This document shows positions 43,564-62,230 of a DNA stretch of 64,000 bases, piece by piece. The stretch covers positions 1,826,001 to 1,890,000 of the forward strand of contig NZ_VAWB01000001.1 in NCBI RefSeq assembly GCF_006148925.1, read 5' to 3'. Positions within the stretch are counted from its first letter, which is position 1, and each line of letters begins with the position of its first letter. The position numbers and the translations under genes are program-made. The notes under the pieces are model-generated. The model worked only from the letters and a program-made list of their open reading frames with translations. It was not told the origin of the DNA and searched no databases. The DNA is from Hyunsoonleella aestuarii. GTDB lineage: Bacteria; Bacteroidota; Bacteroidia; Flavobacteriales; Flavobacteriaceae.

Positions 43564-46500
43564 TTAAAAAACATCAATTCTAACACCTTCACTATGGCTG
43601 CTAAATTCTGGAGCATACATACTTTGAATGGTAGTTATACCGTTACTCATGTCTCCTGAATTATTAATGCGTAAATCATATTCAAACACATAAACGCCTT
43701 TAGGTAAGTAGCTGAAGAAAAAGTTTATAGAAGCGTCTTTGGTACTTTCATAATAACCTAAACCATCTTGCCATTTGTATTTAGAAATAACATTTACAGG
43801 CTCTAATCCTGAAGCTCTCATGTCTTTCATGTGAAGAAATTCCATGTTTCTATCGCTCTTAAGTTCAATGCGCACTCTAACTAAATCACCTATTTTTAAG
43901 TTGGTATTAGAAGTTATTTCGGTTATTTTTTCTCCTTTATCTGTATTTGTTTTTTTGAATAATTTTTTCTTAAGACTTAAAGGCGTTTCTGCTGCAGTTA
44001 TATTATCTAAATCTTCAAAATATTGCCAATATAGGCTACTCCAGGCAATACCTTTTTCTTTTTTTGTAATGGTAACTTCTCCCATTTCTGGAGCAATCTC
44101 TTGTCCTTTCCAAACTGTTTTATAGTAGCCAGTTCCAGCTTCAATTTTTACTTTTTCTAGTTTTTTTGGATTTATTTTTTGGCCACCCAAAACAACTTCA
44201 ACCATTTCTGTAACACTTAACCAGTCACTTCCTTGAAGTAATAAGGCGTAAACGGCTTCTGTGGTAGATTTGGTTGTTTTCCACTGATTAGTTTGTTTGT
44301 TTTTAAGTAACCAAATTTTAAGATTATCGATGGTTTCGAGATTTTTTGTGTCGCTCTGAATAATAGATCCAGCTTCAGAGAAGACTTCAATCATTAAAGC
44401 TTGTGTTTCAATTTGGGCCTGATACCAGTGCCACGAATTAGTATTTGATTTCCAATACATACCTAATTCATCTGAAGTCACACTTGTTTCTTTTAGAGAT
44501 TTTAAAATTTTGGAAGCTGTTTTTTCGTCATTATTTCTATACGATATTAATGCCATTAATCCTTTAGAATAAAGCGATCGACTTAACCAGTATTTTTGAA
44601 TTTGATTTTGATAATAATTAATAATATTTTCAACCTCTTTAGATTTTTTAACATCGTTGAAGAAGCTTCTCATATATAAATAATGCAATTGTGTATGGCT
44701 TAAATGATCTTTGTTTAAATCCACTTTCGCATCATACTTTCTTATGTCTTTATATTCTTTAATGAATTGATTATCTAAATAATTGATAGCTTTTTGAATC
44801 AACTGAGACCCATCGACTTTACTCATGGTGACATTGAGCTGTTTTAAGTGACCAAAACCTGCAATGATATGCTGTGTGATATATCGGTTTTCATATCCGC
44901 CATTAAACCAAGGCCATCCACCAGAAGACATTTGACTGCTTTTCAATTTATTTAGAGCAGATTGCAATTCGTTATTCATTTTATTCAAATCGAATAGTAA
45001 AGCAATGCGCTTTTTTTGCTCTGTTTCACTTTGTACATCTCGCAGCCAAGGGGTTTCTTGAATTAGAATAGATTTTAATTCCTGATTCTTTTCAAGATTA
45101 CTAATCAATACATCAGCGTTGCGCCATTGGTTAAAAACTTCTTGGATTCGAGGATTGGAGTTGGCAATATGACTTGCTAAGGCATTGGCATAATATCTTG
45201 AAAATGTTTGTTCGTTGCATTCATAGGGGTATTCCATTAAATAGGGTAAAGCTTGTACCGCATACCAAGCAGGGTTCGATGTCATCTCTAAGGTTAGTTT
45301 GTGGTGTTTAAGTGTAGAGGAGGAATTATTTTTTAATTTATCTAAAGTGAATGTTTTAGTTTGATTACTTCTAACCCACATAGGAAGTGTTTCGGTAACT
45401 AATATGCGATTGTTTAAAACTGGTAAAGCATTTTGCTCTCCATCGCTAAAATCATCGGATTTTGCTACGACTTTATATTGAACTACTTGGACATCATCCG
45501 GAATGGTTAAGAGCCACGAGACCTCCGTATTACCCTTTGATTCTAAGGAAAAGGTTTTATCGTTTTCAGTATTGTCAAGCTTTATATCAACAGAGTTTCC
45601 AGTAATGCCATCTGTTAAGAGTAAAATGGCTTGTCCCGATATTAGTTTCTCTGTTAAATTTGCAATTTTAGTACTAATAAAAATTTTGTCTCCTTCACGC
45701 AAAAAACGTGGTGCATTAGGGATAACCATTAACTCCTTTTGAGTTACCGTAGTTAATGATTTAGAAGCACTCTCTAATAGTTTTGTATGCGCTAAAAGTT
45801 GCAATTTCCATTGGGTTAAGCTTTCTGGTGTGGTAAAACTGAAACTTACGTTGCCTGCTTCATCGGTTTTTAACTTCGGGAAGAAAAAGGCTGTTTCTTG
45901 CAGATTTGTACGAATTTTTATGTTGTCGAAGTTTGGACCATTTTCGGTAGAATTATAAACATCAGCATTGTTACTATTAATAGTATAACCAAGACTCTTA
46001 GGTTCTTTTTTAATAGCCATACCAGTTACGACTACTTCATCCAAGTTATCATCATTCTCCATCATTAATATAGATTCTTCAACTTCCATTTCATCTGCCA
46101 CAATTTGAACTCCTGGGACACGACCACTAAGTGCCATAGAAACGCTCGCATTACCTCTAATTCTTAATGATTGGTTGTATCCAAAACTAAATCCAAACCA
46201 ATTCAACTGATCATAGGCTTGTTGCGGGTAATTTGCCCGAAGTCTATCTTGATATACTCTAAAGTTTCGTGTTCCAAAACTTTGATAAGCCCTTCGACTT
46301 ACGTTAGAATAGTATGATGAGCGTGTAATAGGACTAAAATTCCAGTTATGCTCCTTGAATTGATCTAACGAAGCATCATACATACTCGCTAAAAATTCAG
46401 CGCTTACCTTTTCACCATAAGCCCCTTTTATTTTAAATTCCCAAGTTTCGTCTGTTCCAGGTTGTAATCTGTCTCTAAATGTTAAGGTTTCTATCTCAAG

Positions 46501-49500
46501 ATTGGTTTTTGGATAAGGAACAGGTATTATTTGAGTACCACTATTAAAACTATTATAGGCTGCGTAACTGTAATGAACTGCAAAGCCACCAGTATCACCC
46601 TGTGTTACAGGAATACTAATAACCCTTTTGTTCGAGTTTAATTCAATAACTTCTGTTTGAATGATTTTTTTGTCTTTTTCTACTGAAAATGTAACCCAAA
46701 TATTTTCGGAGGCCGAAGCCAAAGTTATATATGCAGTCTCCCCATTCTTATACGATGGTTTATCAGTGGAGATGTTAAATAATTCTTGGTCTGCAAGTGT
46801 TTTATCTTTATCGCTATATAAAGTGGTCTTTATTTCATCTTTTACCAATTGACCAAATTTGTCTTTGCTCTCTAACGTTATTAAGTATGAACCAGAAACC
46901 CATTTCTTAATTTTATTGAGTTTGATAGTTTTTGAAACCTCTGTATTAAAGGCCGTTTCCATAACTAGTTCGCCTTTATTCCAATTATTAGGGTTGTCTT
47001 CATCCAGAAATGCATCATGTGGAAACAAATTTTTAAAGGCTTCCTTCGAAAATTCTTGATAATCGGGAGCTGACCAAGGGCGCGGTCTTAATACGGTACT
47101 AGGTGCCTTTAATTTATATATTTTAATATTGCCTTTTGCTGGAACAAATTCGCCATTCAAGTTTTTTGTTTCAATATTTAGAATATGATCTTTCTTCGTT
47201 TTATCCAAAATATTATCAATACTAAGATTAGCAGTTAATGCATGATAACCAACATTAACGATAGTTGCGGCGCTTCTTGTTTCACCATTTAAATCGATTA
47301 CATCGGCAGTAACTTCATATTTAAAAATAGGTAAACTGCTTTTAGAAACACTCCTATCGGCTAAAGCTTTAAAAGTTATTTCAAAATTTCCAGAGGCATC
47401 TGTTGTAGTTTCGCCATGAGTTATTTCTTGCGCTTCACTGTTTGGATTTGGGCGATACCAATAATACCAGTGTGGGTATTGCACTTGTCTGTGCACGCGA
47501 TATGCAACTTTAGCATTTGTAACATTACTTCCTGCGTATGTCAGTGCATTTCCTATTATACTAATAGAATCATTGATTTTAAATGTTTCAGTAATTGGGA
47601 TGAACTTTGTTTCAAATTTTGGTCGCTTATATTCCTCAACCGAGAATCTGTATTCTTCATATATATCTATATCATCGGCATCTAACTCGATATAATATTG
47701 TCCATTCAAGCCGTTGTTTGGTAAAATAAATTCACCAGAAATAGAACCATATTCGTTGGTCTTTAACTCTAATTCCTTCAAGTCTTCATCATTTACATTA
47801 TATAGTGTCGCATATATAGTTTCGTTAGGTAAAATGTCACTTTTACCTTTCTTAGTTCGCATTACGATGGACTTAAAATATACTGTTTGCCCAGGTCTAT
47901 AAATACTTCTATCGGTAAATAAAAATGCTTTGTATTGTGTTTTTTGTCGAATTCGTTGCTCCTTGCCCGCTATCCAATTAGCTGTGAAATAAGCAACCTC
48001 ATTAGAGCTTTTAACTTTTAAGTTTACATTTCGGTACCAGTCACTATCCTTTTCTATTTTAACCTCACCAAAACGGTTTGTTGTGTAATCTTCTTGTTCC
48101 AGAGTTCTTTCATTTCTTCTATAATATGATACTTCAACGTCAGCATTAGATATTGGTTTGCCGTTATTTCTATCTATAATTTGAAAAATTTGATAATTGG
48201 CTGTATTGGTGTTTACCAAAGCCATATTCGTTATTTGAATATGAGTAAAAGCAAATGTATTATCTTTGTCATCTTTTGTGGTAGCTACTATCAAATATCT
48301 TCCATTGTTGAGTTTTGGAATAGAAATTTCTGTACTATGTGATTGAAAATCACATTCATTTTTAAGACGGCTTTCCCAAGTTTTGGATGCATCTAATTTT
48401 TGTATGAATTCCCATTGCTCACTTTGTCTGTGTATTTTTCCGAATTTATCAATTTGCCTTTGAGAGAGTTTATAAGCGTTAAGCTTTAAATAGTCTAAGT
48501 TTTTATAGTTTATTAATAATCGTGCATGTTTTTGAACAGGTAAAAACTCCTCAGTAGTAATTCTTAAAGTTTGTTGTTCAATTTGGTATTTTAAAATGGT
48601 GCTTTTTTCTGCGCTTTTACTTTCTGGGAATTCAGTCATGATGTTGTTGCACATGTCAATTGCTTCTTTTGCCTTCCACCTATGTATTTCGTTGGTTTTG
48701 GGTTTGTAAGATTGACTCTGCTGAAGGTAAACAGAAGCCATTTCAAAATCATATAACCCTTTAGTTTTTTGTCCTTTGTATTTATCACTTTCAACCTGCA
48801 GTGATTTCAGGAATAAGTCTTGTTTATTTGCAAATGTGGCGTGTTGTTGTACAAAATTTAATCGTTCAATATTCACTTCGACTAATGCAAAAGGCAATTT
48901 ATCTTTTAAATGAAATTGAACTAAATCCTGATAGATTTTTAAGGCATTTAATTGAAGTGATGTCGAGTCTTTAGATTCAATTTTTAAAACTGAAAACTTT
49001 TCAGAATCAGCTATAAATTTTGGGTTGTCAATTTCAAATTTATATGCAGGTTTATTTAGATGGGTTTCATTGGATTTGTAGAAATCTAAAGCGTTATGAC
49101 TTAGAAAATCAAAGAGGGTAGGTCTGTACAGTTTTGAGTTTTTCTGTTCGGTTAAAAGTGCACTATATTTTTCTAAAGGCTCAAGTTGCAGGAGTAAACC
49201 ACCGTTTAAGGATTTCTTAAAGTGGAAATGGATTTCTTCAAAAATTGTTTCCAAATCCCAAGTGCGAAAATCATTTTTATTTATTTTTTCAGTTGTTTTG
49301 GTTCGGTTGTAAAACTTCCATCTGTTTTGTTGAAAATATTGCCAGTATAAATCGGCTAAAATACTTTCTAAAACATTGTTAATAGGAAAAGAGCTTACTT
49401 CAATTTCCTTTTTAAAATCATTAATAATTTTTAGTTGTGCATCTTCTTCTAATGTTAAAGCAAATTTGCTTTTAAACAACAAGGTTTTTATGACTTGCGG

Positions 49501-49680
49501 ATGATTTTCATCTTTATTGGCCTTTGTATATATTTGCTCTACTACTTTTAAAGCCGATTTAGGTAAGCCTTCGAGTTCATGCTTTTCAACTTCGAGCCAT
49601 AGTTGGTCGTAAGTAGATCTTTGTGCATATGCATAGCTTGAAAATAATAGAATAAGAAATATAAATATTGACTGCTTCAT
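43564..49680 (-). CDS. Alpha-2-macroglobulin family protein with embedded TonB-plug-like segment
   Basis: A 2038-residue exported protein (signal MKQSIFIFLILLFSSYAYAQ). The N-terminal 400 residues are helical, TPR-like; MG domains follow, including an A2M MG2-type FLFTDRSIYRPGQTVYFKSI. The thioester motif is CNEQ in PYECNEQTFSRYY near residue 1487 (CxEQ as in bacterial macroglobulins), followed by the alpha/alpha-toroid domain. Such proteins trap proteases in the periplasm or on the surface. Near residues 1170-1225 there is an insert with LRIRGNASVSM, ALSGRVPGVQIV and DEVVVTGMAIKKEPKSLGY, typical of SusC/TonB-dependent receptor plugs. This lies just before the domain where the bait region is expected. 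The gene stands alone. Confidence 0.93.
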   Translation of the reverse strand: MKQSIFIFLILLFSSYAYAQRSTYDQLWLEVEKHELEGLPKSALKVVEQIYTKANKDENHPQVIKTLLFKSKFALTLEEDAQLKIINDFKKEIEVSSFPINNVLESILADLYWQYFQQNRWKFYNRTKTTEKINKNDFRTWDLETIFEEIHFHFKKSLNGGLLLQLEPLEKYSALLTEQKNSKLYRPTLFDFLSHNALDFYKSNETHLNKPAYKFEIDNPKFIADSEKFSVLKIESKDSTSLQLNALKIYQDLVQFHLKDKLPFALVEVNIERLNFVQQHATFANKQDLFLKSLQVESDKYKGQKTKGLYDFEMASVYLQQSQSYKPKTNEIHRWKAKEAIDMCNNIMTEFPESKSAEKSTILKYQIEQQTLRITTEEFLPVQKHARLLINYKNLDYLKLNAYKLSQRQIDKFGKIHRQSEQWEFIQKLDASKTWESRLKNECDFQSHSTEISIPKLNNGRYLIVATTKDDKDNTFAFTHIQITNMALVNTNTANYQIFQIIDRNNGKPISNADVEVSYYRRNERTLEQEDYTTNRFGEVKIEKDSDWYRNVNLKVKSSNEVAYFTANWIAGKEQRIRQKTQYKAFLFTDRSIYRPGQTVYFKSIVMRTKKGKSDILPNETIYATLYNVNDEDLKELELKTNEYGSISGEFILPNNGLNGQYYIELDADDIDIYEEYRFSVEEYKRPKFETKFIPITETFKINDSISIIGNALTYAGSNVTNAKVAYRVHRQVQYPHWYYWYRPNPNSEAQEITHGETTTDASGNFEITFKALADRSVSKSSLPIFKYEVTADVIDLNGETRSAATIVNVGYHALTANLSIDNILDKTKKDHILNIETKNLNGEFVPAKGNIKIYKLKAPSTVLRPRPWSAPDYQEFSKEAFKNLFPHDAFLDEDNPNNWNKGELVMETAFNTEVSKTIKLNKIKKWVSGSYLITLESKDKFGQLVKDEIKTTLYSDKDKTLADQELFNISTDKPSYKNGETAYITLASASENIWVTFSVEKDKKIIQTEVIELNSNKRVISIPVTQGDTGGFAVHYSYAAYNSFNSGTQIIPVPYPKTNLEIETLTFRDRLQPGTDETWEFKIKGAYGEKVSAEFLASMYDASLDQFKEHNWNFSPITRSSYYSNVSRRAYQSFGTRNFRVYQDRLRANYPQQAYDQLNWFGFSFGYNQSLRIRGNASVSMALSGRVPGVQIVADEMEVEESILMMENDDNLDEVVVTGMAIKKEPKSLGYTINSNNADVYNSTENGPNFDNIKIRTNLQETAFFFPKLKTDEAGNVSFSFTTPESLTQWKLQLLAHTKLLESASKSLTTVTQKELMVIPNAPRFLREGDKIFISTKIANLTEKLISGQAILLLTDGITGNSVDIKLDNTENDKTFSLESKGNTEVSWLLTIPDDVQVVQYKVVAKSDDFSDGEQNALPVLNNRILVTETLPMWVRSNQTKTFTLDKLKNNSSSTLKHHKLTLEMTSNPAWYAVQALPYLMEYPYECNEQTFSRYYANALASHIANSNPRIQEVFNQWRNADVLISNLEKNQELKSILIQETPWLRDVQSETEQKKRIALLFDLNKMNNELQSALNKLKSSQMSSGGWPWFNGGYENRYITQHIIAGFGHLKQLNVTMSKVDGSQLIQKAINYLDNQFIKEYKDIRKYDAKVDLNKDHLSHTQLHYLYMRSFFNDVKKSKEVENIINYYQNQIQKYWLSRSLYSKGLMALISYRNNDEKTASKILKSLKETSVTSDELGMYWKSNTNSWHWYQAQIETQALMIEVFSEAGSIIQSDTKNLETIDNLKIWLLKNKQTNQWKTTKSTTEAVYALLLQGSDWLSVTEMVEVVLGGQKINPKKLEKVKIEAGTGYYKTVWKGQEIAPEMGEVTITKKEKGIAWSSLYWQYFEDLDNITAAETPLSLKKKLFKKTNTDKGEKITEITSNTNLKIGDLVRVRIELKSDRNMEFLHMKDMRASGLEPVNVISKYKWQDGLGYYESTKDASINFFFSYLPKGVYVFEYDLRINNSGDMSNGITTIQSMYAPEFSSHSEGVRIDVF

Positions 49681-57981: not shown

Positions 57982-59265
57982 TTAATAGCCATATTTATCT
58001 TTCCAACGTAATTTTAAAAAATCACGTTGTGCATTTTCTCTAGAATTATTACCGGGTTCGTATAAAGTTGTATTTATAATATCCTTTGGCATAAACTCTT
58101 GGCTTGCAAAATTTAGGTCGTAATTATGCGCATATTTATAGTTGTCACCATAACCAATTTCTTTCATCAATTTTGTAGGAGCATTTCTAATTTCTAATGG
58201 TACAGATAAAACACCTGTTTGTTTAACAAGCTGCTGTGCTTTACTTATAGCCAAGTATGCCGCATTACTTTTTGGAGAACACGCTAAATAAGTTGCACAT
58301 TGGCTTAAAATAATCCTGGATTCAGGATAACCAATTGTTGATACTGCTTGAAAGGTGTTATTTGCTATAACTAAGGCGGTAGGATTAGCATTTCCTATAT
58401 CTTCACTAGCTAAAATTAATAATCGGCGTGCAATAAATTTAACATCTTCTCCGCCTTCTATCATTCTTGCAAGCCAATATACAGCAGCATTTGGGTCGCT
58501 ACCTCTTATAGATTTTATAAAAGCCGAAATAATGTCGTAATGCTGTTCTCCTGTTTTATCATAATGAACTGTGTTATTCTGAACTTTTTGTAGAACAGCT
58601 TTATCTGTTATAATGATGTCGTCAGAATCGAAAGCATTAACAATAAGCTCAAAAATATTCAATAATTTTCGTGCGTCACCACCAGAAAGCCGTAAAAGTG
58701 CACTTGTTTCTTGTAATGTTATTTTCTTTTTAGAAATATTTTCGTCTTTTTCAATAGAACGCTTTAAAAGGGTTTCTAAATCTTTTTTATCAAAGGCATT
58801 CAATATGTAAACCTGACAGCGCGATAGAAGTGCAGAGATAACCTCGAAACTCGGATTTTCGGTAGTTGCCCCAATAAGGGTTATCCAGCCTTTTTCAACT
58901 GCTTGTAATAAGGAATCTTGCTGCGATTTACTAAAGCGGTGTATTTCATCAATAAACAGAATGGGGTTTTTGGTTGTAAATAATCCACCACTTTGTTTCG
59001 CTTTCTCAATAACCTCACGAATATCTTTAACTCCAGAATTAATGGCGCTTAGGGTATAAAATGGTCTTCCAGATTCTGTAGCAATTATATTTGCTAAAGT
59101 TGTTTTACCTGTACCTGGAGGCCCCCAGAAAATCATAGAGGGAATTAGTCCTTGCTCAATATGTCGCGTTAATGCACCATCTTTGCCTACCAAATGCGAT
59201 TGACTTACATAATCTTTTAAGGATTTTGGCCTTAAACGTTCTGCTAACGGTTCATTTAAATTCAT
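57982..59265 (-). CDS. rarA: Replication-associated recombination protein A (RarA/MgsA)
   Basis: A 427-residue AAA+ ATPase that acts at stalled forks. Walker A is [14 protein letters not shown] (residues 47-58), Walker B is [10 protein letters not shown], sensor 1 is [12 protein letters not shown], with arginine-finger LLSRCQVY. The C-terminal tetramerisation part includes [29 protein letters not shown] -7-like TATTTTTA lies only 4 nt before the start, implying a leaderless message. Confidence 0.96.
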
Positions 59266-61492: not shown

Positions 61493-62230
61493 TTAGCTTT
61501 GCCTTTGCCTAACGACTTCATATAAAAAAGCGCCACAAGCCACTGACACATTAAGAGATTCTATATCACCTAGTAATGGGAGTTTCACTTTAGCATCCAC
61601 AACTTTCAAAGTTGATGGATTAATACCTCGACCTTCCGAACCCATAATAATGGCACAGGGTTCATTAAATGATATATCGTACAATATCTCACTAGTTTTT
61701 TCGGTAGCAGCAATTACTTTAATGCCTGATGCCTGCATGAAGAATACGGCATCTTTAATATGGTCTACTTTACAAATAGGTATTTTAAAAACTGCTCCTG
61801 CACTTGTTTTAATAGTGTCTCCATTTACAGGTGCACCACCTTTTTTTTGAATAATTATACCATTAACACCCGTACACTCTGCTGTTCGAATAATAGCTCC
61901 AAAATTACGAACATCGCTTAATTGGTCAAGTAATAAGAACAAGGGTGTTTTACCAGATTCTATAACACTTAAAACAAGTTCTTCCATGTTATGAAAACCG
62001 ATAGGCGATATTTGGGCCACAGCACCTTGATGGTTCTTTTTGGTAAGTCTATTTAATTTTTCAACTGGTACATAAGAAGAATTGATTGAATTCTTTCTTA
62101 AAACAGCTTCTAATTCCGCGAATAACTCACCTTTTAGCCCTTTTTGTAAAAAAACTTTATCTATGGTTTCTCCAGCATTAATAGCTTCTATAATGGCTCT
62201 TATACCGAATATTTGTGTTTGGTTTTCCAT
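61493..62230 (-). CDS. rlmB: 23S rRNA (guanosine-2'-O-)-methyltransferase RlmB (SpoU/TrmH family)
   Basis: A 245-residue SPOUT methyltransferase. An N-terminal L30e-like substrate domain (IFGIRAIIEAINAGETIDKVFLQK) precedes the knotted catalytic domain with motif 1 LSDVRNFGAIIRTAECTG, motif 2 IIMGSEGRGI and motif 3 LPLLGDIESLNVSVACGAFLYE. RlmB methylates G2251 of the peptidyl-transferase P loop in E. coli. A -7-like TACCTTTA (62236-62243) is only 5 nt before the ATG. Confidence 0.93.
   Translation of the reverse strand: MENQTQIFGIRAIIEAINAGETIDKVFLQKGLKGELFAELEAVLRKNSINSSYVPVEKLNRLTKKNHQGAVAQISPIGFHNMEELVLSVIESGKTPLFLLLDQLSDVRNFGAIIRTAECTGVNGIIIQKKGGAPVNGDTIKTSAGAVFKIPICKVDHIKDAVFFMQASGIKVIAATEKTSEILYDISFNEPCAIIMGSEGRGINPSTLKVVDAKVKLPLLGDIESLNVSVACGAFLYEVVRQRQS

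Follow-up and report, generated by a model that had tools for sequence, protein, structure and literature searches.

Why should pieces of a SusC-type TonB-dependent receptor stand inside a protease trap? The question is raised by an alpha-2-macroglobulin (A2M) gene in the window, by which is meant here the whole stretch of 64,000 nucleotides analysed from Hyunsoonleella aestuarii (contig NZ_VAWB01000001.1, positions 1,826,001 to 1,890,000). The gene, a single uninterrupted open reading frame of 2038 codons on the minus strand (43564-49680), is recognized as an A2M by its Pfam domains and by Foldseek. A sequence-only reading had noticed receptor-like strings about where the bait of such a protein is expected, in an order opposite to that of receptors. 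These strings are present, all in this one open frame; they derive from SusC and lie in the bait interval. Furthermore, the receptor module from which they come was copied into A2M baits at least twice in Bacteroidota. As the copied pieces include the TonB box, the trap may connect to the receptor machinery or mimic it.

The bait segment of the window protein covers residues 1127-1248 (45937..46302, minus strand, as for all other features of this gene). A profile built from 36 SusC N-termini, for which a match was counted at E < 1e-3, hits this bait with a total E of 3.5e-8, in two pieces whose order is swapped: positions 109-138 of the model align at bait positions 73-102 and positions 71-112 at 104-146. 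The plug-derived pieces, LRIRGNASVSMALSGRVPGVQIV (residues 1172-1194, 46099..46167), come first and are followed by a TonB box with a post-box tag, LDEVVVTGMAIKKEPKSLGYTI (residues 1213-1234, 45979..46044), and the bait thus reads RIRG..LSGRVPGVQIV and then LDEVVVTGMAIKKEPKSLGY. SusCs have the order box, LxGxVAG, RIRG; by profile, nine other baits, mostly from near relatives, share the reversal with the window copy. The post-box tag, GMAIKKEPKSLGYTI, is similar to the GIKRE..LGYA kind of SusC, the closest SusC for it in the same genome being L240, with LEEVVVTAFGIKRNPKNLGYAVS. The box itself, DEVVVTG (46021..46041), is letter for letter the heptamer found at residues 82-DEVVVTG-88 in the structure of the SusC Bt1763, whose TonB box was mapped by Gray et al. 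as VDEVVV (81-86) directly after an N-terminal extension (NTE) of family PF13715 (PMC7782687). Deletion of the Bt1763 box, or its change to alanines, causes a defect of growth on levan like that of a SusD deletion, and the Ton box at the C-terminus of a SusC NTE is flexible by nuclear magnetic resonance (PMC7782687).

The match to receptor profiles that had been anticipated stood for the SusC-specific profile, and for profile-profile comparison as described below, but failed for Pfam: searches of the window protein and of its bait with Pfam and NCBIfam gave no receptor match, neither to the NTE/CarboxypepD_reg (PF13715) nor to the plug (PF07715). The window copy is therefore a fragment, not a domain, and its receptor signal is detectable only with the SusC-specific profile and via homologues. 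No outer-membrane beta-barrel was found in the window protein, whose remainder consists of A2M domains.

The position of the segment is that of a bait, as the sequence-only reading had supposed. The elastase-cleaved structure of the E. coli A2M, ECAM, lacks the bait residues Arg923-Leu942 (PMC4498604), and by Pfam that protein has PF07703 at 759-905 and PF00207 at 976-1057. The window segment occupies the equivalent interval, 1086-1263, between the A2M_BRD domain (PF07703, residues 969-1086, 46423..46776) and the A2M domain (PF00207, residues 1263-1348, 45637..45894). Because a profile made from the A2M half found no solved A2M by sequence, the location of the bait was taken from the order of Pfam domains, from ECAM and from the fold; VIA-align served only for viewing the domain register. 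An AlphaFold2 model of residues 839-2038 gives a predicted local distance difference test (pLDDT) of 22-31 across most of residues 1127-1248, in agreement with the disordered bait that had been foreseen. This model and that for L087, an A2M from Tamlana fucoidanivorans, were built from shallow alignments of 24 and 15 rows and have a mean pLDDT of 54 and 53; because they are weak, only the contrast between a disordered bait and a folded NTE is used here. The bait is also hypervariable: in most near pairs it is less conserved in identity than the flanks. A protease bait of a soluble, exported, thioester-bearing A2M is thus the best explanation of the segment.

The recurrence of the receptor pieces was followed in 119 relatives, 299 genomes of the family, 395 genomes of the phylum and 80 named contigs, which yielded 225 A2Ms and 212 distinct baits; the sampling followed similarity to the window A2M and does not amount to a census of the phylum. 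The SusC profile matches 99 of the 212 baits, compared with no reversed bait, no shuffled bait and one of the 212 remainders of the same proteins. A strict TonB-box pattern occurs in 57 of them (shuffled mean 0.01; none in the 212 remainders, which amount to 393,558 residues), and LxGxVAGx in 45 (0.01 when shuffled; none in the remainders). When ten such baits were compared with 16 SusCs, profile to profile, the TonB-box piece matched with a probability of 96.4% and an E of 1.3e-9. The proposal that homologues would carry the same motifs and a receptor-like profile is thus borne out, and entire domains, which the sequence-only reading had not seen, are also found: of 211 baits, 58 match CarbopepD_reg_2 and 27 match Plug in Pfam at E < 1e-3. 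Many homologues of 2100-2260 residues hold at the same spot a CarboxypepD_reg followed by LEEVVVxGYGTQKK and a plug, arranged as in receptors. For example, the insert of L087 aligns over 199 residues with a SusC whose structure is solved (E 5e-41); in the model of this bait the NTE is folded (pLDDT 77-87), with box and plug disordered. The commonest arrangement among NTE-bearing baits is NTE plus box with no plug core (33 baits, CB-- or CBa-). The module of the window is a shortened, permuted version of the one in these homologues, a form that could have come, for example, from tandem duplication followed by deletion.

The same family commonly has a second A2M (L324-L335), of about 1860 residues, lipidated and with a CxEQ thioester. 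The SusC profile matches none of these 12 lipoprotein paralogues, most of which come from genomes that also have the soluble type.

Some other features of the sampled A2Ms may be recorded here. The baits of L071, L189, L075, L014, L077, L051 and L003, mostly without a match to the SusC profile, share a recurring segment that reads roughly KKALVxxSKTEQSGGxIxAExxKKE. The baits of L134, L135 and L136, from another Bacteroidota family (f33), hold a different CarboxypepD_reg and no recognisable TonB box. In L141 a SusC plug fragment lies outside the bait, at residues 327-378 in the N-terminal half. Three A2M genes stand in tandem at G034:C1:488223-508472 (L024, L035 and L043), with CarboxypepD_reg in the baits of L035 and L043. 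L009 and L011 have in-frame stops within the aligned stretch (one TAA; two TAG and three TAA), which may reflect decaying genes or sequencing errors.

How did the module reach these baits? A tree of 207 A2Ms, for which the half following the bait was used, requires at least 29 changes of the CarboxypepD_reg state and 18 of the plug state, compared with 48 and 25 for shuffled labels; the smaller number of changes indicates inheritance as well as turnover. The Winogradskyella-type A2Ms L083 (4359-4994) and L066 (4506-4994) are 96% alike over the 390 residues behind the bait and have entirely different baits, one with a plug and the other with a TonB box. The inserts L042 and L216 cluster with the SusCs L246 and L276 (Shimodaira-Hasegawa-like approximate likelihood ratio support 98-100), and L276 and L042 belong to the same genome. 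With 12 inserts and 20 SusCs, the approximately unbiased (AU) test rejects a single clade of inserts (p 0.0003), which implies at least two captures from SusC genes. A single ancient capture had been considered on a first tree that joined 19 of 21 inserts, and was rejected with more SusCs and by this AU test. Very recent copying is in general unsupported: no insert agrees in DNA with a sampled SusC gene better than L216 does with L276/L322, at 81% over 159 bases.

A candidate donor family lies near. The genes rarA and rlmB (57982-59265 and 61493-62230 of the window, both on the minus strand, named by eye from their translations) stand on the far side of the A2M gene, toward a SusC/SusD locus (L317-L322). 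In at least a dozen genomes, the SusC gene of the SusC/SusD locus beside rarA/rlmB is on the same strand as the A2M gene and 16-30 kb from it. The SusC L246 of the window genome sits at this rarA/rlmB-side locus.

The captured inserts evolve under constraint. Ratios of nonsynonymous to synonymous divergence (dN/dS), derived from dN and dS of near pairs, are about 0.28, 0.25, 0.19 and 0.29 for the inserts of L042/L216, L030/L199, L029/L191 and L185/L062. Other bait pairs give about 1.0, 0.66 and 0.57 (L014/L069, L200/L076 and L054/L055, the last of which also carry an insert), and L071/L182, without an insert, about 0.2, being constrained like the inserts. Against the SusC profile, the box core scores 2.00 bits per column in A2Ms and 2.25 in SusCs, and the CarboxypepD_reg 1.39 and 1.61, the scored baits having been picked by the same profile, which biases them to high scores. 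In 23 independent pairs, chosen with a box in both members, the proportion of synonymous differences (pS) is 0.548 in the boxes and 0.570 in the rest of the bait, and that of nonsynonymous differences (pN) 0.167 and 0.336. The diverged pS and the low pN indicate that the boxes were not freshly copied from one another and that the motif was kept.

A putative Sec signal peptide (49624..49680) was read from the sequence, with a cut between SSYAYA and QRS and without a lipobox; the Gln at +1 agrees with the Q-rule of Bacteroidetes (PMC5837995). A lipobox-like motif occurs in only one of 188 homologue N-termini. Having a signal peptide and no lipobox, the A2M is expected to be a soluble protein of the periplasm, the compartment in which TonB acts. 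The protein has MG2 (residues 584-681, 47638..47931), A2M_BRD, A2M and bMG10 (residues 1901-2025, 43606..43980) in that order, each above the Pfam gathering cut-off. Its thioester motif is CNEQ (residues 1488-1491, 45208..45219), of which C, E and Q are invariant across 24 homologues. For the window model, with a mean pLDDT of only 54, Foldseek ranks the A2Ms of E. coli and Salmonella at the top (ECAM, 5a42, E 1.2e-22).

The use that we rank first, albeit tentatively and at somewhat less than an even chance, is docking of this soluble trap to TonB. The bait is built from the N-terminal module by which SusC engages TonB, that is CarboxypepD_reg (NTE), TonB box and plug, of which the window keeps about 60 residues, the plug pieces having come to precede the box. 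The retained DEVVVTG would be bound by the C-terminal domain of TonB, whose genes are encoded in the window genome. Such binding would tether the trap, which has no lipid anchor, to the energy machinery of the envelope. The trap would then stand next to the receptors, at the presumed point of entry of foreign proteases, and a protease cut in the bait would spring it and simultaneously free it from TonB. Docking is placed first because NTE plus box without plug core is the commonest arrangement, because the NTE of L087 is predicted to fold and because the lipidated paralogue has neither piece; absence of the module from the lipoproteins would be expected if the box replaces a membrane anchor. 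The well-kept box core, the low dN/dS of inserts and the low pN of diverged box codons also speak for it. It seems somewhat unlikely that the coupling goes further, with the proton-motive-force machinery holding the box-gripped A2M in place and perhaps loading or positioning it, and bait cleavage serving as its release from TonB; if true, the clients of TonB would include one other than transporters and imported toxins. Several points weigh against docking. Since roughly half of the sampled baits have no SusC profile match, the protein can do without docking. Docking does not require the plug pieces that the window retains, any flexible, soluble sequence can persist in a bait, and the choice of pairs with a box in both members lowers pN by selection.

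The bait might instead copy a segment that the cell's most abundant receptors expose to the periplasm; a protease attacking receptors would then cut the bait first and be trapped, with no role for TonB. This reading is ranked second, as rather unlikely but a serious rival. The pieces do sit exactly where A2Ms are cut, the Ton box of SusC is flexible as noted above, and box and plug pieces, even a folded NTE, are retained; however, such a decoy would serve the lipoprotein paralogues equally well, yet none of the 12 carries the pieces, and we know of no protease that targets this SusC segment. Third, and about as probable as the second, is the reading that capture went unselected, with a bait that tolerates any insert, numerous SusC N-termini and a nearby SusC locus recombining into it, and subsequent decay of which the window segment would be a relic. 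The turnover of domain states, the unlike baits of L083 and L066, the repeated captures and the proximity of SusC genes are all compatible with such a history. It accords less well with inserts that score almost like true SusCs against the SusC profile and show low dN/dS, with box codons that have diverged synonymously while the motif was kept, and with a lipoprotein paralogue that receives no insert.

Binding to a receptor rather than to TonB, the pieces mimicking a plug and associating with SusC barrels or with the machinery that assembles receptors, would account for the retention of LxGxVAG and RIRG, and of a whole plug in some homologues. It is nevertheless very improbable, the pieces being permuted in the window clade, the plug core missing from most inserts and the plug not predicted to fold in L087. 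A chance resemblance of an acidic low-complexity loop has in its favour nothing beyond the missing Pfam match of the window copy; it is refuted by the shuffled, reversed and remainder controls, by the profile-profile match and by the full domains of homologues, and its probability is negligible.

The A2M fold and the SusC module were both already known; what is new is their union in the bait, the repeated capture and the permutation. No description of a receptor-derived A2M bait was found in the open literature, where no paper combines a macroglobulin with a TonB box (subscription papers lay outside this search). A part of the receptor that TonB grips has been written repeatedly into the A2M bait by evolution. 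Either TonB has a client outside transport, or A2M baits copy vulnerable segments of their own cell, and both readings tie this class of A2M to receptors and TonB. This bears on two poorly understood matters, the threats that bacterial A2Ms counter and the choice of their baits, and it offers an example of domain grafting and motif reordering inside a disordered segment, with a donor gene family nearby.

As compared with known systems, the window protein resembles on one side a SusC/RagA-type receptor. With the N-terminus of such receptors (PF13715, TonB box, PF07715) the homologue inserts share the sequence of the module and the window the exact box; unlike the receptor, the host is a protease trap with no beta-barrel, and the window retains only permuted fragments. 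The lipoprotein A2M paralogue is also a CxEQ-thioester A2M, but it is lipidated and has no SusC match. On the other side, the window A2M shares with E. coli YfhM/ECAM and Salmonella SaA2M, its best Foldseek matches, the MG2, A2M_BRD, A2M and bMG10 domains, the CxEQ thioester and a bait between PF07703 and PF00207. ECAM is membrane-anchored and its gene adjoins pbpC, whereas the window A2M lacks a lipobox; and while the ECAM bait has no SusC match, that of the window A2M is SusC-derived.
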